From contig NZ_JARIEF010000115.1 of NCBI RefSeq assembly GCF_029266915.1, forward strand, positions 1 through 44,315: DNA of 44,315 nt, in the 5' to 3' direction. Below the pieces are notes generated by a model. The model searched no databases and was not told where the DNA came from. It saw only the letters and a list, made by a program, of their open reading frames with translations. This document shows positions 25,135 through 42,442 of the stretch, one piece after another. The first letter of the stretch is position 1. The number at the start of each line of letters is the position of its first letter. Made by a program: the position numbers and the translations under genes. The stretch is from Tissierella sp. (lineage in GTDB: Bacteria > Bacillota > Clostridia > Tissierellales > Tissierellaceae).

Positions 25135-25677
25135 CTATAATGATATACCATTTATCATACTTTCCATTTCTTTAAGTTCATGCTTTAATGTTGAGTCAAT
25201 TAATTTTTCATCCAGTTTAAGAAGTACTCCTCCTATAATGGACGGATCAACTCGATTCGAAAGGTTTATTTCTTTATGGAACTTGCCTTTTAATACAAGT
25301 TTTAATCTTTGTTGTTTTTCCTCTTCCATAGGAACTGCCGTAACAGCTTCCACGTCAAGAATACCTTTGTATTCTTTAAAAAAATTATTGTATTCTTTTA
25401 TTATGTCCATGAGGCTATCTTCACGTCTTTTATCTATAATTATAAATAAGAAATTTAGGATCTCTTGAGAGATATTTTTCTTAAATATATCTTCTACTAA
25501 GGTTTTCTTCTCACCTCTAGAAATTCTAGGGTGCTCAAGAATAGTTATAAGTTTTGATTCTGAATTAAAGATGTTTTTTATAAATTCTAATTGGCTATGA
25601 AAATCATCTATCTTTTTAAGATCAACAGCTACATCAAACAGAGAGGAGGCATATCTTTTACCTACTAATTCTGCCAT
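25135..25677 (-). CDS. atpH: F1 ATP synthase delta subunit (OSCP-type)
   Basis: Delta sits on top of F1 and ties it to the b-subunit stator. The 180-residue protein has the N-terminal helical domain (KRYASSLFDVAVDLKKIDDF) and the conserved C-terminal segment DPSIIGGVLLKLDEKLIDST. ATG 25677 is inside the end of atpF (13-bp overlap), pointing to translational coupling. Divergence is typical for this subunit. Confidence 0.95.
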   Translation of the reverse strand: MAELVGKRYASSLFDVAVDLKKIDDFHSQLEFIKNIFNSESKLITILEHPRISRGEKKTLVEDIFKKNISQEILNFLFIIIDKRREDSLMDIIKEYNNFFKEYKGILDVEAVTAVPMEEEKQQRLKLVLKGKFHKEINLSNRVDPSIIGGVLLKLDEKLIDSTLKHELKEMESMINGISL

Positions 25678-26177
25678 TGAGACGTACCTACCTCATCTAT
25701 AAATTTGTCTATCAATATATTCTGATTTTCTAAGTCTAAATCTTTTTCCATAATTTTTGATGCAATTAAAATTGCCATCTCTCCTGCAGATTTTTTAACA
25801 TCTTCATACGCCTTTTCTTTTTCACGCATTATTTCTTTTCTAGCTCTATCCATTGCTTTATCAGCTTCTATTTTAGCCTCTGCAAGCATTATCTTTTCAA
25901 GTTCACTAGCACGAACTCTAGAACTTTCAACTATTTCTTGCCCTTCTAGTTTTGCCTTTTCTATTCTACCTTCATAATCAGCTCTAATATCTATTGCTTC
26001 TTGTTTTAAAGCTTTCGCCTCACTTATCTCAGTTGCAATATCATCTTGTCTTTTTTGAATAAAATCTGTAACTGGTTTATGCAGATATTTCTTTAAGATT
26101 AAAAACAAAATAAAAGTAGAAACTAGAGTAATTATCATTGGTATAAGTTGAGGCAAGGCTAATACTTGTATTTCCAT
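25665..26177 (-). CDS. atpF: F0 ATP synthase b subunit
   Basis: Subunit b is the peripheral stalk. The 170-residue protein has one N-terminal membrane segment (about 8-28, PQLIPMIITLVSTFILFLIL) and then a long charged helix rich in Glu, Lys and Ala, the usual right-handed coiled coil. ATG 26177 follows AAGGAGGTTAG. One b gene is present, so b is expected to be a homodimer. It overlaps atpH by 13 bp. Confidence 0.96.
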   Translation of the reverse strand: MEIQVLALPQLIPMIITLVSTFILFLILKKYLHKPVTDFIQKRQDDIATEISEAKALKQEAIDIRADYEGRIEKAKLEGQEIVESSRVRASELEKIMLAEAKIEADKAMDRARKEIMREKEKAYEDVKKSAGEMAILIASKIMEKDLDLENQNILIDKFIDEVGTSQWQN

Positions 26178-26216
26178 TCGCTAACCTCCTTAAAATAAGG
26201 AAAAATAATCCTTAAA

Positions 26217-26501
<285 letters not shown>

Positions 26502-26528
26502 TTACTCCTCCTTAAAATTGTTGTTTTA

Positions 26529-27197
26529 TTATTCTGTTGCTCCACTGATAAATATCATACTTAACATTCCAAATATGAACGTTTGCAGAAGTCCTGAAAA
26601 CACATCAAAATATCCGTGTAGTACAGGTGTAACTATTGGAGCAAAGTATCCTAATGCACTGTATAACAATGTCATTATAATACCACCACTCATTATATTA
26701 CCGAATAGACGGAAAGATAATGATACTGGATTTGCAAGCTCTCCTATTACATTTAAAGGAGTCAAAAGGATAAATGGCTCTGTGAAACTCTTTAAATATC
26801 CTAAAATTCCTTTTTGTGTTTTAAATAACATAATCTGAGTTATAAAAAACGTAATAAGAGCTAATGTAAATGTTACACTATAGTCGGAAGTAGGCGGTAC
26901 AAGTCCTATAAGTCCTAGTAAGTTTGCAACTCCTATAAAACATATAATTGTAAATATAAATGGTGCAAACCAAAAGTTTTTCTCTCCCATAGTAGTTTTC
27001 ACTAGATTGTTAATAGCGTCTACAAATATCTCTACTATGTTTTGAAATCCTACTGGCTTTTTCTTAGTATCTGTATTTTTAAACTTGTTATTTGTATATA
27101 GTGCAAATAACGATAATACAATAACAACTAAGACTACATTTATTATACTTGCATGAATCGGAATCTCTTTTCCACCTATTGTTATTAATAGCTCCAA
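26529..27197 (-). CDS. atpB: F0 ATP synthase a subunit
   Basis: Subunit a is the stator channel that delivers ions to the c-ring. The 222-residue membrane protein has five to six segments. The essential stator arginine is Arg163 in ELANPVSLSFRLFGN, and the last helix has QTFIFGMLSMIFISGA. The N terminus resembles the short clostridial form. The start is TTG 27197 with AAGGAGGAATATT upstream. It is 30 bp before atpE. Confidence 0.96.
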   Translation of the reverse strand: MELLITIGGKEIPIHASIINVVLVVIVLSLFALYTNNKFKNTDTKKKPVGFQNIVEIFVDAINNLVKTTMGEKNFWFAPFIFTIICFIGVANLLGLIGLVPPTSDYSVTFTLALITFFITQIMLFKTQKGILGYLKSFTEPFILLTPLNVIGELANPVSLSFRLFGNIMSGGIIMTLLYSALGYFAPIVTPVLHGYFDVFSGLLQTFIFGMLSMIFISGATE

Positions 27198-27253
27198 AAT
27201 ATTCCTCCTTCCAAAATAATATTATACTTTTAACATATGTCCTTAAGAATAAA

Positions 27254-27625
27254 CTACTTTGTAAATTCCTTATCTAAAGCCGTAGAAACTATTATGGTAA
27301 TCTTTATCATAAGAATTCCGAGTACTGTAGCTGGGAAATTTAAATAGTCAGCTAAAACAGCCACAGATAAAACTATAAAGTATATAAGATACCTAAACAT
27401 ATAATGAACTGTGCTATAAGCACTTGCTCTTCCAGGTGTCATCTTTACAGATCTATTTATAGTACTCTCTAATAGCTTAAAGGATAATATGCTAATAATG
27501 AGTCCAAACAAGAACCCTAAAACTATAGGTTTTGGGTTTTTAAACACAAAAAATGAAAATCCCATAATAATAAAACTAAAGATCAATGTTCTTTTGTAAA
27601 CTTTTGTTATTGCATCATCTTTCAT
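27254..27625 (-). CDS. atpI: ATP synthase subunit I (AtpI-like)
   Basis: A 123-residue membrane protein with four predicted segments at the AtpI position, just upstream of atpB. AtpI-type proteins assist c-ring assembly and possibly Mg2+ supply, but are not always required. The sequence matches the loosely conserved ATP-synthase-I family (NPKPIVLGFLFGLIISILSF, then RYLIYFIVLSVAV). ATG 27625 has only a weak ribosome binding site (AGGAAGTGAG at some distance), suggesting coupling to the upstream gene. Sequence divergence makes the call rest partly on context. Confidence 0.85.
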   Translation of the reverse strand: MKDDAITKVYKRTLIFSFIIMGFSFFVFKNPKPIVLGFLFGLIISILSFKLLESTINRSVKMTPGRASAYSTVHYMFRYLIYFIVLSVAVLADYLNFPATVLGILMIKITIIVSTALDKEFTK

Positions 27626-27636
27626 CTATCTCAGTC

Positions 27637-27867
27637 TCACTTCCTCTTATCCTTGAATGCGCCCGTAATTTTAAAAAGGTTAACGAAGCCTGCTCCTGCA
27701 CCTAATATTACAAGTATAAGCATAAAAATTCCGCTTGTTCCTGCCTTCTTATCTAACCACCCACCAATGAAAACACCAAGAAGTATAGGAGTTATCATCG
27801 ATATCCCAAGCTGAGAGATAAGCGCTAAGTTTTTAAGAGCACCCCTGTCATTATTATCTTTTTTCAT
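27637..27867 (-). CDS. AtpZ/AtpI-family membrane protein, first gene of the atp operon
   Basis: A 76-residue protein with two membrane segments (LALISQLGISMITPILLGVF, then GIFMLILVILGAGAGFVNLF) joined by a GGWLDKKAGTS loop, the pattern of the AtpZ family that heads many Na+ and clostridial atp operons. The start is set to ATG 27867 because AAGGAG lies ten bases upstream; a GTG at 27876 would be too close to it. The gene is 11 bp before atpI and follows the operon promoter. Role is probably assembly of the c-ring or cation supply. Confidence 0.88.
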   Translation of the reverse strand: MKKDNNDRGALKNLALISQLGISMITPILLGVFIGGWLDKKAGTSGIFMLILVILGAGAGFVNLFKITGAFKDKRK

Positions 27868-27925
27868 ATAGAGCACGCTCCTTAAAGGATTTATTTTCTA
27901 TTATGGAATGATTTACATCTTATTC

Positions 27926-27954
27926 ATTTTATCAAAAGATTTCGAATTTTACAA
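27926..27954 (-). promoter_or_regulatory. Putative sigma-A promoter of the atp operon
   Basis: TTGTAA (27954-27949) and TAAAAT (27931-27926) are 17 bp apart on the minus strand, about 60 bp upstream of the first atp gene and downstream of the AEC gene stop. Confidence 0.6.
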
Positions 27955-27994
27955 GAAAAAACAATCTTTACTTGTATTTATATTTAAATTTAAT

Positions 27995-28933
27995 TTATAT
28001 TCCACTTACTAAATATACCATTATAGGAATTGTTATTAGTGACAATAAAGAACTAACAAATACTATCTGAGATGCAAGCTTTGTATTATTGTGTGCATTT
28101 CCAGCAAAAATCGCAACGTATGCTGCCGTTGGTGTACTAAGCATCATTACTGGTATTACTATTTTCATTCCAGTAAATCCAAGTACTTTTAACACAAGAA
28201 AGAGAATCATTGGATAAACTAATAATCTTGTTAGCGATATAAAGTATAATTTCTTAGTGGTAAGACATTCCTTTATATTAGATCTTGATAGAAGTATACC
28301 TACTACTATCATAGCTAGTGGCGAAGTTGCACCGCTTAAGAGTCTCATTGTCGTGCTTATTGGTTCTGGAATTTTAATTGAAAGGACAAAGAGTGAGAAT
28401 CCAATTATAATTGAAAGTATTCCCGGGCTTAAAATTATATTTCTTATAATATTTTTTTTAAACTCTCCTCCTTTACTTCTGTTTATCATATGAGCACCGT
28501 ATGTCCATGCTACTATTTCAAATATTAAGCCAGTTCCAAGTACTGCGTAAAAAAGTGCTTCTTCCCCAAGAAGAGAAAGTACTATCGGGTAGCCCATAAA
28601 AGATGTATTTGGAAGTACCATAGCTGTTTCTATTACGTCTCTTTCTCCTTCACTTGAGTCATAGATTCTTTTCATAAGTTTAGATATTAATATCATACCT
28701 AAGTATGCAGCCATTGCTATAATAATAATATCTTTTGCTATACTAAATCGCTCTTTTGTAAATTCAAACTGAAGTGCCAATATAATGGTCGCTGGCATAG
28801 TTACTTTCAGTACAAAATTTGAAAGTTCTTTCTGCCCGCTTAATGAAATTATATCTACCTTTCCAACTATGTAACCTACTACTATCAATAAAAATAAAAC
28901 TGATACACTTTGTAATGTCACTAAAAAATCCAT
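27995..28933 (-). CDS. AEC (auxin efflux carrier) family transporter
   Basis: A 312-residue membrane protein with about ten segments of the AEC family, whose bacterial members move dicarboxylates and other organic anions. Family features include LPNTSFMGYPIVLSLLGEEA, GATSPLAMIVVGILLS and a C-terminal PTAAYVAIFAGNAHN. The start is ATG 28933, with GGAGG five bases upstream; a TTG at 28945 would include that site. It is the last gene after the permease of the fdrA cluster, on the same strand, but a weak terminator-like hairpin separates them. A role in exporting or importing oxamate, oxalurate or another anion of that pathway is inference from position. Confidence 0.88.
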   Translation of the reverse strand: MDFLVTLQSVSVLFLLIVVGYIVGKVDIISLSGQKELSNFVLKVTMPATIILALQFEFTKERFSIAKDIIIIAMAAYLGMILISKLMKRIYDSSEGERDVIETAMVLPNTSFMGYPIVLSLLGEEALFYAVLGTGLIFEIVAWTYGAHMINRSKGGEFKKNIIRNIILSPGILSIIIGFSLFVLSIKIPEPISTTMRLLSGATSPLAMIVVGILLSRSNIKECLTTKKLYFISLTRLLVYPMILFLVLKVLGFTGMKIVIPVMMLSTPTAAYVAIFAGNAHNNTKLASQIVFVSSLLSLITIPIMVYLVSGI

Positions 28934-28963
28934 AGCATCCTCCAAACATATTATTTTAAAAGA

Positions 28964-28995
28964 TTAAATGAGACAATATAAACTCTCTCATTTAA
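28964..28995 (-). terminator. Probable terminator or attenuator between the NRAMP-fold permease and AEC genes
   Basis: Perfect 10-bp arms TCTCATTTAA/TTAAATGAGA (28986-28995 and 28964-28973) with a 12-base loop are followed on the minus strand by a short, broken T run. Termination may be partial. Confidence 0.5.
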
Positions 28996-29024
28996 GCTTT
29001 TCTTTATTATAATATTATATTTTT

Positions 29025-30263
29025 TTATAAAAAGTTCACATATATAAATCTAATTGCTGTTAAACTACTTATAACTAAAGCTAATATAATTCCTAAGTTA
29101 GCAAGAATACTTGTCTTATATTTACCCATAAGGTCTTTATTATTATTTAATATAAACCACGCTAAAATTCCAAATGGCATAAATAATGAGTTAAATGCTC
29201 CACCCCAGCTTGCTACTGAATATGCATTCCATCCGAAGATTGGAATTGTGAAACCTACTAATAGCATTATTAACTGTATCATTTTAAATTTCTTAGTTCT
29301 GGGATCTACTTCCCACTGAAGAAGATCTGTCATTATATAGGCTTGAATAGAAGTGTTAGCAATCATAGTACTAAGAGCCGCTCCTCCCATTCCAAGAGCA
29401 AATAAAATAGTACTTAATTTCCCTGCAAATGGTTCTAGTGCTGCTCCTGCTTCGATAGCACTTGTAGGTTGAATCCCTCTTATATAAAGAGTAGATGTTA
29501 CTACTATAAGAACTGCAATTTGTACAAATAACAAGAACAAGCTTGTAATTATAGTTTCAAATTTAAACAGCTTTAAGTCACTTGCATCATATTTACTACT
29601 TTTAGTAGCATAAGCCTGCATAAATGGTGCATTTATTGGAAGAGCTGAACCAAGTACTGCAGTAAATAGAAGTACTTCTGCTTTATTTTTAGGAAGTGAG
29701 AATTTTGTTATTCCTCTAAACAAATCTCCCCAATTAATATCTACTATAAATAACGATATTATATAACTTGCAGTTAGGAAATATATCATCAGTTGAATAG
29801 ATTTTTGTATTACATCATTTGCTGATTTTCCTGGTATAGATATTATAATTCCAGCTACTATTATCGCAATTACCATTCCTATTTTAAAAGATACGCCAGG
29901 AATAATAGATTCAAATACATCTCCTAGAAGAGAAATTTGAATTGTAAAGAATATTACGTTTGAAATTAATACTGCCATTGCTACGATCCATGCAAATGCT
30001 GGATTTATTTTTTCACGAATAAGTGCTACGGGATTTTTATCTGTTACTATTGTAAGCCTAACACATGCAAATATAGCAAAATATGATGCTAGTACAGCAA
30101 ATGCAAATACCCATCCATACATATATCCTGTTGCCGCAGCTAAAATAACTGAGTTTGTAACCGTTGCCCCACCTACGTTTAGTCCCGCAGACATCCAAGC
30201 TGGTCCTGTCGCTTTAAGTTTCTCTATAAAGTTCATATCATCAAAACTTTTTTTGTTCTCCAT
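29025..30263 (-). CDS. NRAMP-fold permease lacking the canonical metal motifs
   Basis: A 412-residue protein with about eleven membrane segments. The first segment (GPAWMSAGLNVGGATVTNSV, residues 20-39) and the overall layout resemble NRAMP divalent-metal transporters. However, the metal-ligand DPGN motif is replaced by NVGG/VGGA, and the MPH motif of segment six is replaced by ALPINAPFM. The metal ligands are therefore missing. I infer that it carries a non-metal substrate, possibly a ureide such as oxalurate or allantoin, or an organic anion, given its place after arcC. An alternative is an NCS1- or other APC-superfamily permease; I do not see the hallmark motifs of those. ATG 30263 follows AGGAGG. 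Confidence 0.7.
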   Translation of the reverse strand: MENKKSFDDMNFIEKLKATGPAWMSAGLNVGGATVTNSVILAAATGYMYGWVFAFAVLASYFAIFACVRLTIVTDKNPVALIREKINPAFAWIVAMAVLISNVIFFTIQISLLGDVFESIIPGVSFKIGMVIAIIVAGIIISIPGKSANDVIQKSIQLMIYFLTASYIISLFIVDINWGDLFRGITKFSLPKNKAEVLLFTAVLGSALPINAPFMQAYATKSSKYDASDLKLFKFETIITSLFLLFVQIAVLIVVTSTLYIRGIQPTSAIEAGAALEPFAGKLSTILFALGMGGAALSTMIANTSIQAYIMTDLLQWEVDPRTKKFKMIQLIMLLVGFTIPIFGWNAYSVASWGGAFNSLFMPFGILAWFILNNNKDLMGKYKTSILANLGIILALVISSLTAIRFIYVNFL

Positions 30264-30295
30264 TTTATACCTCCTTGTATTTTTTTAAATCTTTT

Positions 30296-30466
30296 AAGTA
30301 AATATTCTAATAAAATTTTTAATGCATTCTATTGAATATTTACTTTCATTTTTTGTGTTTAGACTTATTTTAATTTAAGATAAGTCATTTTAAATAAAAT
30401 ATTCATTTTTAAAAATCTTTAATTCTACATTTCATCTAGGTAGGAACTGTATAAAATGTAGAATTA
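30296..30466. repeat. Three successive inverted repeats between arcC and the permease
   Basis: Within the 209-bp gap there are perfect arms at 30296-30307/30334-30345 (12 bp), 30362-30368/30380-30386 (7 bp) and 30420-30432/30454-30466 (13 bp). The last, nearest arcC, is followed on the minus strand by AAAGATTTTT and could be a weak terminator or an mRNA-stabilising 3' end. Confidence 0.7.
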
Positions 30467-30472
30467 TTAAAT

Positions 30473-31405
30473 TTAGTTGCCTTCGATTAGTGTTCCAGTT
30501 TCTCCTTTTATCCCTTCTGCTGCTTTTTCAAGAGAAGTTATAAGAGCGCGTCTTCCTGGTTTTGAAACTGCAAATCCTTTAGCTGCTTCAATCTTTGGAA
30601 GCATAGAACCTGGAGCAAAATGTCCTTCTTCTATATATCTATCAAGTGTTTCAATATCTAAATGGCTTAACCATTCTTCGTTTTCTTTTCCGTAATTTAT
30701 AGCAACTTGGTCTACTCCTGTAAGGATAATTAAATAATCTGCATCTAAAAGTTCTGCAAGTTTTGCTGATGCAAAGTCTTTATCTATTACGGCGTCTATT
30801 CCTATAAGAGAGTTTCCTTCTTTATAAACAGGAATTCCTCCACCACCAACAGTTATAACTATATTACCATTTTCTACCAGTGTAGATACACTCTCAAGTT
30901 CTACTACATCTACCGGTCTTGGAGAAGCTATAACTCTTCTATATCCTCGTCCTGCGTCTTCTACAAAAGTGTTTCCAGTTTCTTTAGCTAGTCTTTGGGA
31001 TTCTTCTTTGCTATAAAAACCACCTATTGGCTTAGTAGGATTATCAAAAGCTGGATCATCCTTTTCTACTATTACTTGAGTCACAAGAGTTGCAACTGGA
31101 TTTTTAATCTTTCTTTTTACCAGTTCTTCTCTAAGAGCATTTTGCAGATGAAAACCAATATATCCTTGACTCATAGCATTACACTCTGGAAATGGGACAT
31201 CCGGAATACTTGAATTAACTTTTTTAGCCTCTTCAAAAGCAAGATTTATCATACCGACTTGAGGACCATTGCCGTGTGCTATAACTACCTTGTGCCCTTC
31301 TTCTATAAGATTTACTATAGGAACTGCACTCTCTTTTACAAGTTCTAATTGTTCTTTTGGATTATTTCCTAAAGCATTTCCACCTAGTGCTATAACTATT
31401 TTCAT
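30473..31405 (-). CDS. arcC: Carbamate kinase
   Basis: Carbamate kinase converts carbamoyl phosphate and ADP to carbamate (then NH3 and CO2) and ATP, a fermentative ATP source. The 310-residue protein starts MKIVIALGGNALG, has HGNGPQVGMI, GGFYSKEESQRL and VIDKDFASAKLAELLDADYL, the family's amino-acid-kinase signature. ATG 31405 follows TAGGAGG. No arginine deiminase or ornithine carbamoyltransferase is nearby, so the arginine pathway is not indicated. Its neighbours fdrA and DUF1116 instead point to carbamoyl phosphate made by an oxamate-type carbamoyltransferase, making this the functional counterpart of E. coli AllK (YbcF). Confidence 0.96.
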   Translation of the reverse strand: MKIVIALGGNALGNNPKEQLELVKESAVPIVNLIEEGHKVVIAHGNGPQVGMINLAFEEAKKVNSSIPDVPFPECNAMSQGYIGFHLQNALREELVKRKIKNPVATLVTQVIVEKDDPAFDNPTKPIGGFYSKEESQRLAKETGNTFVEDAGRGYRRVIASPRPVDVVELESVSTLVENGNIVITVGGGGIPVYKEGNSLIGIDAVIDKDFASAKLAELLDADYLIILTGVDQVAINYGKENEEWLSHLDIETLDRYIEEGHFAPGSMLPKIEAAKGFAVSKPGRRALITSLEKAAEGIKGETGTLIEGN

Positions 31406-31422
31406 ATTTTGCCTCCTATAAT

Positions 31423-31455
31423 TTTAGGGATATCATATAAGCAGATATCCCTAAA
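31423..31455. repeat. Inverted repeat between the DUF1116 gene and arcC
   Basis: Perfect 12-bp arms TTTAGGGATATC (31423-31434) and GATATCCCTAAA (31444-31455) with a nine-base loop, directly before the arcC ribosome binding site. No T run on the minus strand. It may set relative expression by mRNA processing or stability. Confidence 0.7.
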
Positions 31456-31522
31456 TGTTTTTATTAATCTAAAACTTTTATATAAAAAGTCTATATTTTT
31501 AGCTATTTAATTATATTTTGTT

Positions 31523-32785
31523 TTATTTGTCCATACCAAGTTTTTTTGCATAAGCAAGTACTGCTTTTTCAAAACACTCTACTGGTGGATGAACAGTTCC
31601 TGCTCCAATTTGACCAAGTCCTGCTACTTTGTTTGCAATACCTGTATTTATTACAGGAGTTATTCCAGTTTCTACAACTTTTCTAGCATCTATTCCAAGA
31701 CAAATTCCTTGGAAATCCCAAGTTGGAACTATAAAGTTAGGGTTTTGATCAATACATATTTCAAGCATTTCATTACTCGTATTAAGGGCATCTGCAAATC
31801 CTCCAGTACCAACAAATCTTGTTACAGCTGGTGCTGCTATCATAGCCATTCCACCTACTCCAAAGGTTTCAGTTATAGAGCTATCACCAATATCTGGATT
31901 TGCATCCTCTCCTGAGAATCCTGTAAAGTAAAGTCCTTGAGGAGTATTTACTGGAGCTGTAAACCATTCATCTCCCATACCCGCAATCTTAATACCAAAG
32001 TTTTCACCATTTCTTGCCATAGCCGTTACAACAGTTCCATATTCTATAGTCCTTGCACTATCCATAACTGCTTTTGAAGCTGCCATCATTATATTTAAAA
32101 AGAATTGGTCTGTATCTGCTAAGAACTTTATAACTTCTTCCTTTTCCTTTTGGTCTATATCAAGACCAACTATAGTAGGGCTTATTTCTTTTAAGAATGC
32201 TAGAGAAGCTGCTATATTTCTTTGATGGAATTCATCTCCCATAGCTATAGCTTTTGCTATCATAGGATTTACTGAAAGTCCATCTTCCATAGTTCTAAGA
32301 GCTTTTCCAAGTACCGGTCCAAGAACATCTGTTATCCAATGAAGTCTATCAATTACTTCTTGTGAATAAGCACCAAATCTTAAAACTTTTCCAATACCTT
32401 CGTTTAGGATACAATATGCTCTATTTCCTTCATTCGTCTCCTCAACAACAAACACAGGCATATTACCAGAAGTAATCCCGCCCATAGGTCCTACCGCATT
32501 TACACTGTGGCAAGGCATAAATGCTACCTCTCCACTGTCTAAAAGTTCTCTAGCTTCTTCTTCAGTTTCAGCCCATCCTTCAAACAATGCTGCTCCTATG
32601 CAAGAACCTTTAACTGGATCTGTCATATTTTCCCATTTAATTGGTGGTCCAGCGTGAAGAAGTGCCTTTGCATTTAGTTCTTTTATAACACTCTTTGCAG
32701 GGACTACATCGAGTAATACTGGTGCAGAAGCTACAATTTTTTCTATTACCGCTCTATTTGCTTCATCTATAGTATTATAAATCAT
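31523..32785 (-). CDS. DUF1116 (YlbE/AllG-like) protein, probable oxamate carbamoyltransferase subunit
   Basis: A 420-residue soluble protein of the DUF1116 family, which includes E. coli YlbE, now AllG, a subunit of anaerobic oxamate carbamoyltransferase. Conserved-looking segments are GPPIKWENMTDPVKGSC near residue 55, GPMGGITSGNMPVFVVE near 101, and GGMAMIAAPAVTRFVG near 315. It probably works with the FdrA protein 20 bp upstream to phosphorolyse oxalurate to oxamate and carbamoyl phosphate. ATG 32785 follows AAGGAGAG. The exact substrate is inferred from homologues and context. It is followed by arcC. Confidence 0.9.
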   Translation of the reverse strand: MIYNTIDEANRAVIEKIVASAPVLLDVVPAKSVIKELNAKALLHAGPPIKWENMTDPVKGSCIGAALFEGWAETEEEARELLDSGEVAFMPCHSVNAVGPMGGITSGNMPVFVVEETNEGNRAYCILNEGIGKVLRFGAYSQEVIDRLHWITDVLGPVLGKALRTMEDGLSVNPMIAKAIAMGDEFHQRNIAASLAFLKEISPTIVGLDIDQKEKEEVIKFLADTDQFFLNIMMAASKAVMDSARTIEYGTVVTAMARNGENFGIKIAGMGDEWFTAPVNTPQGLYFTGFSGEDANPDIGDSSITETFGVGGMAMIAAPAVTRFVGTGGFADALNTSNEMLEICIDQNPNFIVPTWDFQGICLGIDARKVVETGITPVINTGIANKVAGLGQIGAGTVHPPVECFEKAVLAYAKKLGMDK

Positions 32786-32805
32786 CTTTATCTCTCCTTA
32801 TTTTT

Positions 32806-34557
32806 CTATTTAAATTTATATCCTCTTAAAAAGTCTAGTGCTTTAACTAACTCTTCATTTCCTCCAGCCACTGGTTTCCAATCATATTGAACTACATCTA
32901 CTCCAAAAGTTTTTAAAGTATCATAAAAACTCTCAAGACCAATATTTATAATTCTAGGTTTTTGAGTTATTAATTCTTTCATAGCTTCACTTGATTCTAT
33001 ATATATATTTTCTGTGATTTCGTGTCTAGGAACTACATCCTTTTTAGGATATTTTACTTCTTTTCCTATAAGAGCTAAAGCCTTTTCAACTGCTTGATTG
33101 TTGGTCTCGCAAACTATGACCCCTATATCTTCCATTATTTTCTTTTGTTCTCCATAATTTTGTGGATCCTTATCAGTACCACAAATTGTAGTTACAAAGT
33201 GAATCTCTCTGCCTTCTTCTTTAGCTGCATTTTGTATATCAACTATCCCTTTAGATAATTGATCTGCCATATTTTCATGGGAGCCGTATCCCAGTACTAT
33301 ATCAAAAAGAATAACACGAGTTGATTTATCTTTCATAGCATTTTTCATATATTCACGTCTTGCAGTAGGATCCATCATAGGATGAGGTTTTCCTTGAGTA
33401 TACTTATCATCTCCAAGGTCAATTACTTCAAAACCATTTGTCCTTAACATATATCCTTCTTCATGACTCATTTCTTTATCTCCATGAAGAGCATCTTTTA
33501 TAAGCATAGCTGCTTCTCCTCCAAGTGTTCCTCCAGAGTAGTACGCCTTTATAGTAAGACCATCTTCAACATCTTCTGCTTTAGAAGTGTTTCCATCAAA
33601 CTGTCTTACCTCTTCTCCCTTAAGAAGGCTAACTGAAATTCTAGCTGCCTCTTCAAGAGTATATGCATGGTATAGTTTTTCTTCATGTTCTTCCGGCTTT
33701 TCACCTAAAAATATAGTAACTATTGGTTTATCTACAGTTCTAAGATAATTCATTATTTTTTTACGTACGCTTTGTGCTGGTGGCTTTGAAATTATGGTTA
33801 TAACTTCAGTGTCTGGATCTTTTGCAAGAGTCGCTATAGCGCTTAGCATAGTAATTCCTCCAACTTCTTCAGAGAGGTCACGTCCTCCAGTACCTATAGC
33901 ATTTGTAACTCCGCCGCCCAATTTATCTATTATAGTTGTTACCTCTTGTATTCCAGTTCCAGAAGCTCCTACTATTCCAATCTTTCCAGAGGATATATTG
34001 TTTGTAAAAGCAATTGGTACTCCCTTTATAACTCCGGTACCACAATCAGGTCCCATACATAATAATCCTTTTTCTCTAGCTTTTTGTTTTAGCTTTACTT
34101 CATCTTCTAGACTAACGTTATCACTAAACATAAACACATGTAAGCCTTCATCTAATGCTCTATTTCCAACTGACGCTGCATATGTTCCAGGAACTGATAT
34201 AACCGCAAGGTTTGCATCATCCATTTCTTTTAAAGCACCTTCCCAGGATTTAACTGATCTTTGTTCTTTAGAACCACTTGATTTTGCTTGACTTGCAAGA
34301 AACTCATCTATCTTTTCAAGTATCGGCCCTACTATCTCTTCATCTTCTGTGTCTATTACAATAGCCATATCATTCGAAGTAGCTGCTGCAAGTTCATCAG
34401 TTTTAAGCCCACTGTTTTCAAATATATCTTTGTTTGCCGGAGTACCCATCATAATGGACACTTTATTAACTCCCTCAACTTCAGAAATTTCATTTGTAAG
34501 AAGCATAAGAGTAACTGAATCTTTGTATAAATTTTCTTTTATAATTGTTTTTAACAT
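32806..34557 (-). CDS. fdrA: FdrA (AllF-like), probable oxamate carbamoyltransferase subunit
   Basis: A 583-residue acyl-CoA-synthetase-like protein of the FdrA family, with nucleotide/CoA-binding-type Rossmann domains. The N-terminal region starts MLKTIIKENLYKDSVTLMLL; GKIGIVGASGTGIQEV is at 191-206, followed by the GTGGRDLSEEVGG segment, and a second domain contains AYYSGGTLGGEAAML. In E. coli the homologue is AllF, a subunit of the oxamate carbamoyltransferase in anaerobic allantoin use. ATG 34557 is preceded by GGGAG at eight bases. It is the first gene of the minus-strand cluster, divergent from the hydrolase-pucR pair across a 282-bp region. DUF2877 (AllH), the third known subunit, is not encoded in the window. 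Confidence 0.92.
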   Translation of the reverse strand: MLKTIIKENLYKDSVTLMLLTNEISEVEGVNKVSIMMGTPANKDIFENSGLKTDELAAATSNDMAIVIDTEDEEIVGPILEKIDEFLASQAKSSGSKEQRSVKSWEGALKEMDDANLAVISVPGTYAASVGNRALDEGLHVFMFSDNVSLEDEVKLKQKAREKGLLCMGPDCGTGVIKGVPIAFTNNISSGKIGIVGASGTGIQEVTTIIDKLGGGVTNAIGTGGRDLSEEVGGITMLSAIATLAKDPDTEVITIISKPPAQSVRKKIMNYLRTVDKPIVTIFLGEKPEEHEEKLYHAYTLEEAARISVSLLKGEEVRQFDGNTSKAEDVEDGLTIKAYYSGGTLGGEAAMLIKDALHGDKEMSHEEGYMLRTNGFEVIDLGDDKYTQGKPHPMMDPTARREYMKNAMKDKSTRVILFDIVLGYGSHENMADQLSKGIVDIQNAAKEEGREIHFVTTICGTDKDPQNYGEQKKIMEDIGVIVCETNNQAVEKALALIGKEVKYPKKDVVPRHEITENIYIESSEAMKELITQKPRIINIGLESFYDTLKTFGVDVVQYDWKPVAGGNEELVKALDFLRGYKFK

Positions 34558-34703
34558 CTCTCCATCTCCCTCACTTTTTTAATCTTCTCTTGTTTTAACA
34601 TTTTACTATTGGTGCTTTTATTACTTTTTATTTAATTTTACAAAACACATATAACATGGTTTTAACTCTCTTAAAAGTTCCTACTATATATGTTACCCTT
34701 TAA

Positions 34704-34764
34704 TTGTATAAACCTCTTTGTATGAGTCTACATATTTACACTTTTTTTTAGTGTTTTTATACAA
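34704..34764. repeat. 9-bp inverted repeat in the divergent fdrA/hydrolase regulatory region
   Basis: TTGTATAAA (34704-34712) and TTTATACAA (34756-34764) are perfect inverted copies, 52 bp apart centre to centre, about five helical turns. The right arm is seven bases upstream of the hydrolase -35 box. It is a candidate operator for the PucR-type regulator encoded downstream. Apart from this and the promoter, the region 34558-34839 is plain AT-rich DNA, and I did not find a convincing promoter for fdrA. Confidence 0.45.
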
Positions 34765-34770
34765 AATAGT

Positions 34771-34799
34771 TTGAATTATGCTATTTATAATGATAAAAT
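34771..34799 (+). promoter_or_regulatory. Sigma-A promoter of the hydrolase-pucR pair
   Basis: TTGAAT (34771-34776) and TAAAAT (34794-34799) are 17 bp apart, about 40 bp upstream of the hydrolase start. Confidence 0.65.
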
Positions 34800-34839
34800 T
34801 TAGAGATATCTTGATTATTATAATATTGGAGGAAAAGTA

Positions 34840-35694
34840 ATGGAAAGTTATAGTTATAAAAAAATAAAATATAAAGAAAAACAATTTGATATAAAACTTA
34901 ATATATATAGAGCTTTAAGTGAAGAAAAAGGAATAATTTTATATTTTCACGGTGGAGGCTTGATCTATGGAAGTCGTTTGGATCTTCCTAGACTTCATAA
35001 AGAAAAACTTCGATCTAAGGGATACACTATTATATCCTTTGACTACAGATTAGCTCCAGAATCAAACCTCGATGAAATCTTAAGCGATGTAAAAGATGCC
35101 GTAAATTTCTTTTTAGATAATAGAAAAGAATTAAAACTTTCCAACAGCCCCTACTTCCTTTGGGGAAGATCAGCTGGAGCTTATTTAGCATTAATGTTAT
35201 CTAATATGAAATTTCAAGAACAAGCTAATGGTGTAATTTCTTTTTATGGGTACGCTTTTACAGTAGAAAATTGGTTTAATAACCCAAGTCCATTTTATCT
35301 AAAATATCCTAATATAAAAGAGGATCTCATCGAAAATAAAATAGGTGAGCATCCTATATCAGTGGGAGACATAAACAAGAGGTTTCTGATTTATCTCTAT
35401 GCCAGGCAATCGGGAAAATGGTTATCTATTCTTACAAATCAAAGTTTAGATGATTTTTTAAATAAGTATTCTTTGAAATATTTAGAAGTAAATTTTACTC
35501 CAGCATTTTTTGCATATAGTTTCAAAGACACTGATGTACCATTTAGGGAATCTATAGAGCTGGCAAAACGATTTCATGACTCCTCTACTTATACAAATTC
35601 ACTAGATGCTCATGATTTTGATAGAGATGAAAAAAGTTCCCAGACTAAACATCTTTTAAATAAAATGGTAGAGTTTTTAGATTCAAGTATTTAA
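34840..35694 (+). CDS. Alpha/beta hydrolase of the hormone-sensitive-lipase type
   Basis: A 284-residue cytoplasmic esterase/amidase-like hydrolase. HGGG (37-40) forms the oxyanion hole, the nucleophile is Ser111 in GRSAG, the acid is probably the Asp in FKDTDVP, and the base is the His in LDAHDFDRDE. FDYRLAPE near residue 68 is also typical of the HSL family. ATG 34840 follows GGAGG. It is the first gene of a plus-strand pair with pucR (22-bp gap), divergent from fdrA. A role in the same ureide or purine pathway, for example hydrolysing an ester or amide intermediate, is only inferred from position; the substrate cannot be predicted. Confidence 0.88.
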   Translation: MESYSYKKIKYKEKQFDIKLNIYRALSEEKGIILYFHGGGLIYGSRLDLPRLHKEKLRSKGYTIISFDYRLAPESNLDEILSDVKDAVNFFLDNRKELKLSNSPYFLWGRSAGAYLALMLSNMKFQEQANGVISFYGYAFTVENWFNNPSPFYLKYPNIKEDLIENKIGEHPISVGDINKRFLIYLYARQSGKWLSILTNQSLDDFLNKYSLKYLEVNFTPAFFAYSFKDTDVPFRESIELAKRFHDSSTYTNSLDAHDFDRDEKSSQTKHLLNKMVEFLDSSI

Positions 35695-35716
35695 ATTATT
35701 AAATAGGAGGTAAGAT

Positions 35717-37339
35717 ATGATAAAGTTATTCAACATCTTAGAGCAAGAAAGATTTTCTTATTTTAAAATATTAAATAATAAAGTAAATTTAGATAGAGGC
35801 GTATCAACTGTAGACTCCGCAGAGACTCCTGATGTATACAATTATATACCTCCAAACACATTTTTAGTTACTACGGGAATGATATATAAAGATAATCAAA
35901 AAAGTCTGTCCCTTCTAATTGAAAAGTTAGATCAGATTGGAACTTCAGCTCTTGCTATAAAGCTCGGAAGGTTTATAACTGAGGTAGATCCTGAAGTAAT
36001 AGCCACTTGTGATAGACTTGGATTCCCTCTTCTATTAATACCTGAAAATATGACTCTTGGAGATATACTTCTTCAAATTCTCTCATATGTCTGGGATAAT
36101 AAAAACGACGAACTTTCATACGCCTTTAATATTCAGAAAAAATTCTATGATTTAGCACTAAAAGATTCATCTGTAAATGTACTGGTGAAAAGTTTATCTC
36201 ATACATTAAAAAAAGATATAGCTCTTATAGATCCATTTGGAAATATTAGCTGTTTATCTAATGAAGAAAATAAAAAATATTATAAAAGATCTATTAGAAA
36301 TATAATAGAAAAGATATCAGAAAATCCAAGGTCTACAACAAATTTTGATAGAACTATTAAAGACTATGAAGATAAGGATATGAACATTTCAATATATCCA
36401 ATAAACATATCTCATTATTATCCCTATTATTTAATAGTATTTCATTCTGAAGACTTAGCATTTCCAATCTCTAAAATGGTTATAGAACAAGCTACATTAG
36501 TACTTGCATTTAAACTATATAAAGATTTAAGAGCATCTTATAATACAATAATAGACCGCGAGAGTTTTGTTAAAGATCTCCTGTCACTAGACACATTTAA
36601 AGGCCTTTCAAATCCACAGATTGTTGCTATCGGATATAAGTATGGATTAATACTAGCAAGCAGCTACAAGGCTATCCTGATGAGTATAAGAGACTTAGAT
36701 GAACTATCATCAAGGTTTTCTTATAGGGATGAATTATATACTCTTATTTATGAATGGTTAAACAGAAAAATAAATAAAGACTTAAATAATGTAGCCTTAT
36801 TTCCTAATAGAGAAGATTATAGATTTATATTGGTGGTTCAAAATGATAGTAAGGACATTGAAGAGTATTTAAAATCTTTTAGAACTATACTTAAAAAAAC
36901 ACTTAGACTGGATACTGTATTTTCAATGGGCGAAAACACATCACTTCTTGAAGACTTGAAATATTCTTATAGAGAAGCTAGAGAGGCAGTTTTAAATGGA
37001 GAAACTAGAAATAATATAGATTATATAAAGTACTATACACCTATTGAAACTGGAGATTTATTTAGATTTATTCCCAAAACTCAAGGAGAGATTTTCTCTA
37101 AATCAATACTAAAAACACTAGCAAGCCCCGAAACTCAATCTCAAAAAGACCTTAGAGAAACACTTAAAGTATATTTAGATTTAAGTTACGATATAACTAA
37201 AACTGCAGAGAAGCTATTTATTCATAGAAACACAGTTTCTTATAGAATTAAAAAATGTGAAGAAATTCTAGGAAAACCCTTAGATGATCCGGAGTTCAAT
37301 CTCGGACTTAGGCTCAGCTTAGTTCTTACCGAAAAGTAA
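35717..37339 (+). CDS. PucR-family transcriptional regulator
   Basis: A 540-residue regulator of the PucR/CdaR type. The N-terminal PucR domain (about 6-125) contains FLVTTGMIYKDNQKSLSLLI and ATCDRLGFPLLLIPENM. A central region contains the CdaR GGDEF-like domain (about 285-410). The C-terminal helix-turn-helix (about 475-535) reads LRETLKVYLDLSYDITKTAE, then LFIHRNTVSYRIKKCEEILG, a PucR/CdaR-type DNA-binding domain. In bacilli PucR controls purine catabolism, which agrees with the divergent fdrA cluster. It probably senses a pathway intermediate and activates transcription. AGGAGG precedes ATG 35717. It ends in a bidirectional terminator shared with upp. Confidence 0.92.
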   Translation: MIKLFNILEQERFSYFKILNNKVNLDRGVSTVDSAETPDVYNYIPPNTFLVTTGMIYKDNQKSLSLLIEKLDQIGTSALAIKLGRFITEVDPEVIATCDRLGFPLLLIPENMTLGDILLQILSYVWDNKNDELSYAFNIQKKFYDLALKDSSVNVLVKSLSHTLKKDIALIDPFGNISCLSNEENKKYYKRSIRNIIEKISENPRSTTNFDRTIKDYEDKDMNISIYPINISHYYPYYLIVFHSEDLAFPISKMVIEQATLVLAFKLYKDLRASYNTIIDRESFVKDLLSLDTFKGLSNPQIVAIGYKYGLILASSYKAILMSIRDLDELSSRFSYRDELYTLIYEWLNRKINKDLNNVALFPNREDYRFILVVQNDSKDIEEYLKSFRTILKKTLRLDTVFSMGENTSLLEDLKYSYREAREAVLNGETRNNIDYIKYYTPIETGDLFRFIPKTQGEIFSKSILKTLASPETQSQKDLRETLKVYLDLSYDITKTAEKLFIHRNTVSYRIKKCEEILGKPLDDPEFNLGLRLSLVLTEK

Positions 37340-37373
37340 GTTTAATAGATATTTATCTCTTCGCCACAAATAA

Positions 37374-37407
37374 AAAAGATAGAACAGAAAAATCTGTTCT
37401 ATCTTTT
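37374..37407. terminator. Bidirectional terminator between pucR and upp
   Basis: Perfect 15-bp arms (37374-37388 and 37393-37407) with a four-base loop, A-rich on the left and T-rich on the right, so it can terminate the convergent genes on both strands. Confidence 0.92.
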
Positions 37408-37412
37408 ACTAT

Positions 37413-38042
37413 CTATTTAGTTCCAAAAAGTCTATCTCCTGCATCTCCAAGACCTGGCACTATATATGCGTGATCATTAAGTTTCTCATCTATACTTGCC
37501 ACATAAATGTCTACATCGGGATGAGCTTCATGTACTGCGTCTATTCCTTCTTGAACAGATACTAAACATACAAGTTTTATATTAGTTGCTCCTCTTTGTT
37601 TTACAGAGTTTAGAGCAGCTATTGCTGATCCTCCGGTTGCAAGCATTGGGTCTACTACTATTAATTTCCTCTCATTTACGTCTTGAGGAAGTTTACAGTA
37701 ATATTCTATAGGCTGTAGAGTTTCAGGGTCTCTATAAAGTCCAACGTGACCTACTTTTGCCGCTGGAAGAAGTGTTAAAAGTCCCTCTACCATTCCAAGA
37801 CCTGCTCTTAATATAGGTACAATTGCAAGTTTTTTTCCAGCTAATGCTGGTGACATCATCTTTGTAATAGGAGTTTCTATCTCTATGTCTTCAAGCTCTA
37901 AGTCTCTTGTTACTTCATATCCCATAAGCATTGCAACTTCAGAAACAAGTTCTCTAAATTCTTTTGAACCAGTGTTTTTATCTCTAATATAAGTTAATTT
38001 ATGCCTTATTAAAGGATGGTCTAATACTATTACTTTTCCCAT
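37413..38042 (-). CDS. upp: Uracil phosphoribosyltransferase
   Basis: Upp salvages uracil to UMP with PRPP. The 209-residue protein has normal length. Hallmarks are [28 protein letters not shown], the PRPP-binding [16 protein letters not shown] and the uracil-binding [16 protein letters not shown] at the C terminus. ATG 38042 follows AAGGAGG. It lies 46 bp after rpiB and ends the run that starts at sua5. As in bacilli, upp is near the ywlC-ywlE-rpiB genes. Confidence 0.98.
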
Positions 38043-38088
38043 TCAAATTCCTCCTTAGTTTTCATTTAATATTATAACATAGTTTTAC

Positions 38089-38517
38089 TTAAATTTGATT
38101 TATTTTTTCAACCCTTTTAGCATGTCTTCCGCCTTCAAATTCTTCTTTTAAAAATACTTTTACAATCTCTATAGCAAGAACATCTCCTATAACTCTTCCG
38201 CCTAAGGCTAATACATTTGCATCATTATGAGCTCTAGCCATTTTTGCAGCATATAAACCATTACAAAGAGCACATCTTACTCCGTCTACTTTGTTTGCTG
38301 CTATAGAAATCCCAATTCCAGTTCCGCAGATAACTATTCCTCTGTCTACTTCACCTTTTATTACTGCTTCTCCTACTGCTCTACCATAGTCTGGATAATC
38401 AACTGAATCTGCAGAATTAGTACCATAGTCTATAAATTCTACTTCATCTTGAAACTCTCTCTTTAGGATTTCCTTTAAATCAAGTCCGCCGTGGTCGCTT
38501 CCTATTCCTATCTTCAT
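38089..38517 (-). CDS. rpiB: Ribose-5-phosphate isomerase B
   Basis: RpiB interconverts ribose 5-phosphate and ribulose 5-phosphate in the pentose phosphate pathway. From ATG 38517 the protein is 142 residues: MKIGIGSDHGGLDLKE at the start, VDYPDYGRAVGEAV, and the active-site region CGTGIGISIAANK followed by RAHNDANVLALGGRV. The start is five codons inside the longest frame because GGAGGAG lies just before this ATG. It could act on allose 6-phosphate in some species, but context fits the housekeeping role. Just upstream is a direct-repeat segment with its promoter candidate. Confidence 0.97.
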   Translation of the reverse strand: MKIGIGSDHGGLDLKEILKREFQDEVEFIDYGTNSADSVDYPDYGRAVGEAVIKGEVDRGIVICGTGIGISIAANKVDGVRCALCNGLYAAKMARAHNDANVLALGGRVIGDVLAIEIVKVFLKEEFEGGRHAKRVEKINQI

Positions 38518-38543
38518 CTTTATCTCCTCCATTAATTTTATAT

Positions 38544-38669
38544 ATGCTAGTCTTCTATTCCCAAAATCTTATAAGTGCAATATTTTATATAAACAATAAA
38601 ATATGCCTTATATAGCCTTTGGATAAGTGCGACTAAGCATCAGAGATGCATCTGATGCTAGTCTTCTAT
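38544..38669. repeat. 15-bp direct repeat flanking a 96-bp hairpin-rich segment
   Basis: ATGCTAGTCTTCTAT occurs at 38544-38558 and again at 38655-38669, the second copy overlapping the ywlE stop codon. The 96 bp between contain a perfect 9-bp hairpin (38636-38644/38651-38659), an ATATTTTAT/ATAAAATAT hairpin, and ATAAGTGC twice. The layout suggests insertion or duplication of a small element. Confidence 0.6.
38568..38596 (-). promoter_or_regulatory. Possible promoter of rpiB-upp
   Basis: TTGTTT (38596-38591) and TATAAG (38573-38568) are 17 bp apart on the minus strand, inside the segment flanked by the direct repeat. Only moderately good. Confidence 0.35.
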
Positions 38670-39106
38670 ATGTGCTTGTATATCTTTTCTATGGCATAGA
38701 TTATTTCATCTCTTGCCTTATCATAAATCATTTTATTTCCGCCAAAAGGATCTTGTATATCTTGATTTTTACCAAATGCATATTCATTTAATAAAAAGAT
38801 CTTATACTTCTTATCTGGATAGTTAGATACTAACATATTTTTATGAGAGTTTGTCATAGTTAAAATGAGATCACTTGAATCTATAAGGTCCTCTGTTACA
38901 AGCTGTGATCTATGTGTCTTTATATTTATGCCTATATCGACTAAAGAATTTATAGCATTACTTGCTGCAGGACTTCCAGAATCTGCAAATATCCCTGCGG
39001 AACTTGATACTATATCTAAGCCTTTTTCTTTGGCTATTTTTCTTAGTATTCCTTCTGCCATAGGACTTCTACAAGTATTTCCAGTGCATATAAATAGTAC
39101 CTTCAA
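38666..39106 (-). CDS. ywlE: Low-molecular-weight protein phosphatase, YwlE-like (probable protein-arginine phosphatase)
   Basis: A 146-residue low-molecular-weight phosphatase. The active-site loop at residues 7-13 is CTGNTCR: nucleophile Cys7, Arg13, with Asp of the DPFGG segment as probable general acid. Threonine at position 11 is the residue that favours phosphoarginine in B. subtilis YwlE, whereas tyrosine phosphatases usually have Ile or Leu there, so arginine phosphatase activity is inferred. The start is TTG 39106, with GGAG seven bases upstream; the longer frame would overlap sua5 and does not match. It is 10 bp after sua5. The ywlC(sua5)-ywlE-ywlF(rpiB) order is conserved in Firmicutes. 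Confidence 0.92.
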   Translation of the reverse strand: MKVLFICTGNTCRSPMAEGILRKIAKEKGLDIVSSSAGIFADSGSPAASNAINSLVDIGINIKTHRSQLVTEDLIDSSDLILTMTNSHKNMLVSNYPDKKYKIFLLNEYAFGKNQDIQDPFGGNKMIYDKARDEIIYAIEKIYKHI

Positions 39107-39116
39107 AATACCACTC

Positions 39117-40166
39117 CTAACATTTGATAATCTTTCCACCAGATGCCTTCATCATTCTATTCATAATTGCCAGTCCTATATCATCAAGCTCTACACCTTC
39201 AGCCAGGATTATATCTACATCCAAGGCATCAAACTCACGAAGTATATTAAAAAGACTTGTTGCTATAGTTCTTTTATCACTCCGAGTACCTAATGTTTTT
39301 ATAATTATATTTGTATTTTTATACTTATCTTTAGTTTCATCAGTTGCCATTATTCCTACTTTTTTATCATTCAATATTTCTCTATCGATATTCTCTTGTA
39401 TCTGTACTACTACACTATCCACCTCTCCTGTAAATACTATCATCTCTGCTTTGGGTGCGTAGTGACGATACTTTTGTCCAGGAGATTTAGGTATTATATC
39501 GCTTTTTAAATTAGCTCGATCTTCAACCACTTCCGGTATAATCTTTCTTAAGTCTTCAAAAGTTACAGCTCCCGGTCTTAATATTGTGGGAATGCTCGTT
39601 GATAAGTCCAACACAGTCGACTCCAGACCAATTCCAGTGCTTCCGCCATCTATTATCATCTCTATCTTACCTAACATGTCTTCAACTACATGAGCTCCGC
39701 TAGTTGGACTTGGTCTGCCCGATAGATTTGCAGAAGGGGCTGCTATTGGAAGCTTTGCTAAATTTATAAGAGCTCTTGCAATAGAATTCTCCGGCATTCT
39801 TATTGCAACGGTTTCAAGGCCTGCGGTTATTATATCTGGAACTAACTTTTTTCTTTTAAGTATTATGGTAAGAGGACCCGGCCAAAAGTTTTCTATACAT
39901 TTTAAAGCAGTTTTGGTCACCTCTTCTACAAGACTTTCAAGCTGGTCTACTTCTCCTATATGAAGAATCAAAGGATTATCCGAGGGCCTTCCTTTAGCTC
40001 GATAGATATTTCTAACTGCTTCTTCGTCGAGTCCATTTGCTCCCAGACCATAAACTGTTTCAGTAGGAAAGGCTACAATACCACCACGCTTTATAATATT
40101 AGCGGCTTCTCTTAGCTCTTCTTCTTTGAAGTTTTCTTTATCTATATTTATTATTTTAGTTTTCAT
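39117..40166 (-). CDS. L-threonylcarbamoyladenylate synthase, long Sua5/YwlC type
   Basis: This enzyme makes threonylcarbamoyl-AMP from threonine, bicarbonate and ATP for the t6A modification of tRNAs reading ANN codons. The 349-residue protein is the two-domain Sua5 form: an N-terminal YrdC domain (about 1-205, GGIVAFPTETVYGLGANGLDE-like block, RAKGRPSDNPL, LPIAAPSANLSGRPSPT) and a C-terminal Sua5 domain (about 240-345). The linker region has SPGQKYRHYAPKAEM, conserved in Sua5. ATG 40166 follows AAGAGGTAA. It is downstream of prfA beyond a terminator and followed closely by ywlE. Confidence 0.96.
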   Translation of the reverse strand: MKTKIINIDKENFKEEELREAANIIKRGGIVAFPTETVYGLGANGLDEEAVRNIYRAKGRPSDNPLILHIGEVDQLESLVEEVTKTALKCIENFWPGPLTIILKRKKLVPDIITAGLETVAIRMPENSIARALINLAKLPIAAPSANLSGRPSPTSGAHVVEDMLGKIEMIIDGGSTGIGLESTVLDLSTSIPTILRPGAVTFEDLRKIIPEVVEDRANLKSDIIPKSPGQKYRHYAPKAEMIVFTGEVDSVVVQIQENIDREILNDKKVGIMATDETKDKYKNTNIIIKTLGTRSDKRTIATSLFNILREFDALDVDIILAEGVELDDIGLAIMNRMMKASGGKIIKC

Positions 40167-40194
40167 AAATATTACCTCTTTATGGATTTATATT

Positions 40195-40225
40195 AAAAAA
40201 AGAAGAGAAGATCTCTTCTTTTTTT
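40195..40225 (-). terminator. Terminator of prfA
   Basis: Perfect 14-bp arms (40212-40225 and 40195-40208) with a three-base loop, with A and T tails on the two sides. The stem starts in the prfA stop codon. Confidence 0.9.
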
Positions 40226-41288
40226 AATCTTGCATAAGTTTCTCTGCTTCATCTGTAGTTACTAAAGCATCTATAAGTTCATCTAATTCTCCATCTAAAA
40301 AATCAGTAAACTTATGAACTGTATAATTTATTCTATGATCTGTTATTCTTCCTTGAGGATAGTTGTAAGTTCTTATTCTCTCAGATCTATCTCCCGTACC
40401 TACTTGACCTTTTCTGTCTTGCGCAATTTCTGCTTGCTGGTCACTTAAAACTTGATCATATATTCTAGCTTTAATTACTTTCATAGCTTTTTCTTTATTC
40501 TTCGTTTGGCTCTTTTCATCTTGGCAAGATACTACTATTCCAGTTGGAATATGAGTTATTCTAATGGCAGAGTCAGTTGTATTTACGTGCTGACCACCTG
40601 CTCCTGAAGCTCTATAGTTATCTACCTTTAAATCTTTGTTTTCTATATGAACGTCTACATCTTCTGCCTCTGGAAGTACTGCAACAGTAGCTGTTGATGT
40701 ATGAATTCTACCACTTGATTCAGTCTCTGGTACTCTTTGAACTCTATGAACTCCTGATTCGTATTTAAGTCTACTAAAAGCACCTTTACCTTTTATCATA
40801 AATATAATTTCTTTAAATCCACCAATTCCTATTTCATTAGAATCCATAATATCAACTTTCCAATTGTTTCTCTCAGCATATCTTGAATACATTCTAAAGA
40901 GAACTCCTGCAAATAGAGCAGCTTCGTCTCCTCCAGCTCCTCCTCTGATCTCAACTATTACGTTTTTATGATCATTTGGATCCTTTGGTATAAGAAGCAC
41001 TCTTATATCTTCTTCTACGTTCGCTTTATCTTCTTCAAGTCCTTTTATTTCTTCTTTAACCATATCTTTCATATCATCATCTAATTTTTCATGAATAAGC
41101 TCATTAGCACCTTCTAATTCTTCAAGTATATTTACATATTCTCTATACTTAAAAACTATCGGTTCAATGTCGGAATGCTCCTTCATAACACTTTGGTATT
41201 CATTAAGATCTTGAACAAGTTCAGGATCCATCATTCTTTGATTCAATTCTTCATACTTCTCTTCAATAGAACCTAATTTATCTAACAT
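40224..41288 (-). CDS. prfA: Peptide chain release factor 1
   Basis: RF1 reads UAA and UAG stop codons and releases the peptide. The 354-residue protein has the PxT recognition tripeptide as PET ([14 protein letters not shown]) and the GGQ motif ([13 protein letters not shown]), so it differs from prfB, which has SPF. Length and domain order are normal. ATG 41288 is preceded by GGGGG. It lies 50 bp after the chromate-family pair, which is inserted between prmC and prfA. PrmC methylates the glutamine of the GGQ motif of both RFs, explaining the conserved neighbourhood. Confidence 0.98.
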
Positions 41289-41338
41289 AAAAAACCCCCG
41301 CGATTTACTCTTTATTTTTATCTTTATATTTATCTTTT

Positions 41339-41869
41339 TTAAAATTCATCATCTTTTTTTATAAATTTGTTATAAACTACTCTTCCTAAAACACCTACAA
41401 TTATTATATATATAGGTGTTATACCTAATAATACTATGATAGATGCTGCTACTACAGCTATTGCTAAGTCTTTATACCCTAAATGTGCCTTTGTAATAAG
41501 CTGATATACTGCCGAAAATATAAGTGCTACCACTACTGGTCTAATACCCATAAACACTTTTTCAAATATAGGATTATTATTAAACTGTGTAAAAAAAACA
41601 GCCACAAGCAGTATGATTACAAATGAAGGTAACACAGTTCCAAATGTGCATATAAGAGCTCCCTTTAATCCCTCAATTTTGTATCCTACAAATATACTTG
41701 AATTTACAGCAATAGGTCCCGGTGAGGACTGTGCGATTGAGATAGTGTCTATAAATTCTTCATCTTTTATCCATTTTTTATTTTCGACTACTTCCTTTTG
41801 AATAATAGGAATCATTGCAAAACCTCCACCAAAGGTAAATGCTCCTATCTTTAAAAAGGTTAAAAACAT
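41339..41869 (-). CDS. Chromate-transporter-family (CHR) membrane protein, second of a pair
   Basis: A short-chain CHR protein with about five to six membrane segments, forming a pair with the next upstream gene. The sequence starts [20 protein letters not shown] and includes [18 protein letters not shown]; pairs of half-size CHR proteins are thought to form heterodimers. True substrate is uncertain; many CHR proteins transport anions such as sulfate or chromate. ATG 41869 has no ribosome binding site and gives a protein about eight residues shorter at the N terminus than its partner. The upstream TAATG and A AAA AAG slippery heptamer may fix this (see the next entry). Confidence is high for the family and low for the start. 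Confidence 0.88.
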
Positions 41870-41871
41870 AT

Positions 41872-42431: not shown

Positions 42432-42442
42432 ATACATTCTCC

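Follow-up and report, generated by a model that had tools for sequence, protein, structure and literature searches.

The window analyzed here, 44,315 bp in length, is the whole of contig C8 of the Tissierella sp. assembly. It carries genes for FdrA, a DUF1116 protein and a carbamate kinase (Table 1), which the initial annotation had equated with AllF, AllG and AllK. The exact coordinates, the family scores and the placement in the AllF/AllG clade all bear this out. FdrA scored 732 bits with NCBIfam PRK06091 'FdrA' (cut-off 433) and matched PDB 3DMY 'Protein fdrA' at E 4.7e-112. AllG matched PF06545 at 325.7 bits and PDB 3CLQ at E 5e-115, and the carbamate kinase, at 381.3 bits, exceeded the TIGR00746 equivalog cut-off of 358.25. 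In trees that included E. coli AllF/AllG and YahF/YahG, FdrA and AllG of the window fell into the clade of E. coli AllF/AllG (100/100), separate from the Yah type and from a third type. A Yah-type cluster (YahE-YahF-YahG-YahI) was rejected because the window proteins lie outside the YahF/YahG clade, with the FdrA split at 100/100.

Table 1. Features of the allF-allG-allK cluster and its surroundings in the window.
Feature	Position	Strand	Support
Auxin-efflux-carrier (Mem_trans) family transporter, co-oriented	27995..28945	-	PF03547 126.8 bits; kept in C56 copy
Nramp-family-like transporter, co-oriented, downstream	29025..30263	-	PF01566 155 bits; kept in C56 copy
allK / arcC, catabolic carbamate kinase, 310 aa	30473..31405	-	TIGR00746
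allG-arcC gap, 117 bp, ORF-free	31406..31522	-	Hairpin before arcC
allG (DUF1116), oxamate carbamoyltransferase subunit AllG, 420 aa	31523..32785	-	PF06545, PDB 3CLQ, E. coli AllG clade
allF / fdrA, oxamate carbamoyltransferase subunit AllF, 583 aa	32806..34557	-	NCBIfam PRK06091, PDB 3DMY, E. coli AllF clade
Alpha/beta hydrolase, divergent from allF	34840..35694	+	PF20434/PF07859
PucR-family purine catabolism regulator	35717..37339	+	PF07905 90.8 bits, PF13556

The right half of the window has a second syntenic copy on contig C56 (window 25140-44315; L007 1-19066). The two copies share 83% DNA identity, and their FdrA proteins are 89% identical. Neither copy has AllH between AllG and ArcC. 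In the window, nothing but the short gap separates arcC from the DUF1116 gene, as had been noted before, and in our gene-order survey this gap was the site of allH in E. coli and most relatives. The reported lack of a DUF2877 gene around the cluster was also confirmed, as a profile search with PF11392 (AllH) gave zero matches in the window. An AllH concealed in the window or the gap, or fused to another protein there, was rejected, as the profile search gave no match. A hairpin lies at about 31455-31423, immediately before the ribosome site of arcC. The C56 copy retains its stem with paired changes (GGG/CCC versus GAG/CTC).

Flanking genes and candidate regulation

The Nramp-like protein scored under the metal-transporter equivalog cut-offs. 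Read by eye, it does not have the DPGN and MPH motifs typical of the metal site. Its gene is found downstream of allFGK in both strains, and another Nramp-like gene occurs near an FdrA-DUF1116 pair in L071. It is probably a transporter of the pathway rather than a metal pump, and it may carry an organic pathway compound instead of metal. On the other side of the cluster, homologues of the alpha/beta hydrolase adjoined all-gene clusters in many relatives in our neighbourhood survey.

The PucR-family protein likely regulates the window cluster. Another PucR, beside allC on contig C17, is 46% identical to it. We compared the promoters of C8, C17 and C18 and did not find an operator common to them. 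A palindrome upstream of allF, TTGTATG-N2-CATACAA, is perfect in the C56 copy and has three mismatches in the window. It was rejected as a common operator, being imperfect in the window and no better than chance in C17 or C18.

AllH and the upstream enzymes in the assembly

The initial annotation had offered an unlinked AllH as one way out, and had asked for a search of the whole genome with the DUF2877 profile. We ran this search and found exactly one gene, on contig C18 (3080-3997, forward strand; 84.5 bits, cut-off 25), which was the sole DUF2877 match in the assembly even at E 10. Thus, the apparent oddity disappears. The initial annotation had asked for such a gene to be co-regulated with the cluster; the gene exists, but the promoter comparison gave no common operator. 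The C18 AllH gene adjoins that of an allantoinase, which is convergent with it at a distance of 67 bases and scored 734 bits with PRK08044 (cut-off 688). The allantoinase gene is preceded by one for an allantoin permease, which is truncated by the contig end.

Searching with AllC, AllE and AllD of a relative, we found an AllC-AllE-AllD operon on C17 (23585-26684), with the divergent PucR alongside. AllC scored 666 bits (cut-off 598), AllE 348 (cut-off 200) and AllD 590 (cut-off 496). Behind the operon lies a gene for a dicarboxylate-type symporter, further trailed by putative purine nucleoside phosphorylase, sugar kinase and nucleoside hydrolase genes, named from sequence. As AllB, AllC, AllE and AllD all pass the NCBIfam equivalog cut-offs, the route from allantoin to oxalurate is complete in the assembly up to AllFGH. 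The earlier statement that no allantoinase or ureidoglycolate enzyme is present therefore holds for the window, where our gene survey of the whole contig found no allantoinase, AllC, AllD or AllE, and fails for the assembly. With the upstream enzymes encoded on C17 and C18, the idea that the substrate is imported at a late step falls. A plasmid search found nothing.

Completeness of the assembly is 88.9%, and contamination is 6.8%. The syntenic second copy on C56 shows that it mixes two congeners, so it is not certain that C17 and C18 belong to the strain of the window. It is conceivable that C18, and perhaps C17, came from a congeneric contaminant and that the AllH of the window's strain is unassembled or absent. 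The level of contamination and the second copy on C56 would agree with such an origin, as would the finding of AllH, AllB and AllCED only once each. However, the contaminating share is small, and most single-copy contigs should thus be those of the main genome. In addition, the AllH-less cluster is common to both strains, which implies the same answer for AllH in both, unless one of them lost the pathway. We consider a contaminant origin unlikely.

The possibility that the cluster acts on another carbamoyl compound than oxalurate had also been raised. The F-G-K operon lies apart from AllB and AllCED and travels with the Nramp-like and AEC transporters. Besides, some FGHK loci of Bacillaceae and Erysipelothrix have no AllCDE within 10 kb. 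These observations would suit a different substrate. Nevertheless, the proteins are of the AllF/AllG type by phylogeny, and the closest cluster from the same family (G010) is joined to AllC, AllE and AllD. The complete AllB-AllC-AllE-AllD set in the assembly further disfavors another substrate, which we regard as quite improbable.

Dependence of AllFG on AllH

In the window and in its C56 copy, allH stands outside the allFG operon; inclusion is the usual arrangement, and one that the enzyme does not require. We surveyed 80 related loci from named genomes, counting AllH as adjacent when it lay within 600 bases of AllG. AllH was adjacent in 62 loci and not in the other 18, and all 18 genomes with a locus of the latter kind encoded AllH elsewhere. 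When two further genomes from the sample of relatives were included, AllH was found elsewhere for 20 out of 20 AllH-less FdrA/DUF1116 loci. Across 292 other genomes sampled from the class, 13 had both DUF1116 and DUF2877, one had DUF1116 only, none had DUF2877 only and 278 had neither (p about 1e-21). The sole DUF1116-only genome had a diverged DUF1116 of 208 bits. Among 59 relatives, the corresponding counts were 18, 1, 2 and 38 (p about 5e-12). This near one-to-one co-occurrence is a strong argument for a joint function of DUF1116 and DUF2877.

Diverged DUF1116 genes were seen in L072 (G059, about 9960-11213), where FdrA was not found nearby, and in G316. Neither genome had a DUF2877 match.

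In E. coli, AllFGH is the enzyme, and loss of any one of its genes strongly lowers the formation of oxamate (PMC11326118). With allH left out, allFG of E. coli still restored about 7% of the oxamate (PMC11326118), so AllH may not be absolutely required. This residual activity would agree with a two-subunit AllFG carbamoyltransferase that has no need of AllH, which the initial annotation had considered; the C18 AllH would then serve something else or another strain. The absence of AllH from the cluster in both C8 and C56 points the same way, as do five genomes (G035, G057, G093, G186 and G229) with two DUF1116 genes but one AllH. However, this reading is disfavored by the co-occurrence of the families and by the AllH found elsewhere in all 20 genomes, and the assembly does have an AllH, beside the allantoinase. 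It appears very improbable to us.

In L065 (G035) and L071 (G057), a second FdrA-DUF1116 pair was observed that has no AllH beside it, with one AllH elsewhere in the genome. A shared AllH or a two-subunit enzyme is better sought at these loci. Genomes that combine two AllFG pairs with a single AllH are naturally suited to testing whether it serves both.

We conclude, with a probability of roughly 85%, that the window encodes AllF and AllG of an ordinary oxamate carbamoyltransferase together with the carbamate kinase AllK, and that their AllH is encoded unlinked in the same genome. This conclusion is based on gene content, family membership, phylogenetic placement and the co-occurrence of DUF1116 and DUF2877. 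We infer the substrate, a complex that includes the C18 AllH, and a regulatory role of PucR. Allantoin would enter via the permease and be converted to oxalurate by AllB, AllC, AllE and AllD. By its predicted activity, AllFGH would carry out the phosphorolysis of oxalurate to oxamate and carbamoyl phosphate, and from the latter AllK would produce ATP, CO2 and ammonia. Counted against the unlinked AllH were the mixed assembly, in which C18 could belong to the other strain, the lack of a common operator, and the position of the C18 AllH off the branch to which AllH of the closest AllFG relatives belongs. As a pathway this is an ordinary one; the gene arrangement alone is a little unusual. With the apparent gap removed, the window is no evidence for a two-subunit carbamoyltransferase.

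AllH history and comparison with known systems

In a tree of 52 AllH proteins, the C18 AllH grouped with AllH of Lachnospiraceae and Clostridium sp. E02 (96/88), whose loci likewise have AllFG without an adjacent AllH. A placement with the in-situ AllH proteins of those relatives that are nearest by AllFG was rejected (p-AU 0.0002), in a test for which the AllH groups were named once a first tree had been seen. The C18 AllH would thus belong to a 'detached' AllH branch that is discordant with the FdrA tree. This is a modest new point, for which the evidence is moderate because AllH evolves fast and its branches are long. AllH and AllFG thus differ in their history, as would be expected if AllH was replaced or transferred, or if its in-situ copy was lost several times. 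It is possible, although we are doubtful, that the third subunit was swapped in this lineage as well as in Lachnospiraceae. The AllH encoded between AllG and AllK would then have been lost and replaced by a distinct AllH subfamily encoded apart from AllFG, at or near the allantoinase gene. If true, AllH would be an exchangeable subunit, possibly regulatory or shared. The finding also offers a way into the role of AllH, which is nearly always found with DUF1116, yet is mobile in the genome, fast-evolving, sometimes fused to the kinase and off the AllF tree.

Gene fusions were observed among the surveyed loci. A fusion of FdrA and AllG, about 1000 aa long and encoded by one ORF, occurs chiefly in Lachnospiraceae (L101, L103, L104, L109, L119, L140, L144, L148, L150, L159 and others). 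In several Listeria species (L082, L083, L085) and in one Paenibacillus (L108), a single ORF of about 590-660 aa encodes AllH together with carbamate kinase. Both fusions would fit one complex that hands carbamoyl phosphate to the kinase.

The detached-AllH loci of Lachnospiraceae and Clostridium sp. E02 (e.g. L103, L111, L119, L141, G061, G063) resemble the window in having AllFG by ArcC without AllH between them. Their AllH is on the same branch as that of C18 and is placed elsewhere, adjoining AllB in L103, L119 and L141. They differ in that AllF is usually fused to AllG and in that AllH is about 6 to 14 kb off. Moreover, a sister relationship to the window's proteins was rejected both for their FdrA (p-AU 0.0003) and for their AllG (p-AU 0.019).

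The E. coli yahEFG-I system (DUF2877, FdrA-like, DUF1116 and carbamate-kinase-like proteins) brings together the same four protein families. In contrast to the window, its FdrA is shorter (515 aa), its DUF1116 protein is longer (472 aa) and its DUF2877 gene lies upstream, and its FdrA forms a separate clade (100/100).

The E. coli allFGHK genes (fdrA-ylbE-ylbF-ybcF) encode homologous AllF, AllG and AllK in the same order as the window. The window proteins belong to the same clade, and AllB, AllC, AllE and AllD are present in the window's assembly. Unlike in E. coli, AllH is beside the allantoinase on another contig and not between AllG and AllK, and the cluster is flanked by a PucR-type regulator and an alpha/beta hydrolase, then by the Nramp-like and AEC transporters. 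The nearest cluster from the same family, that of G010 (L056), whose AllG is 78% identical to the window's, has Est / AllC-MFS-AllE-AllD-AllF-AllG-AllH-transporter-ArcC-PucR in one run. Of such a G010-like cluster, the window carries the F-G-K part, and the C-E-D part is on C17, which has a separate transporter and PucR.
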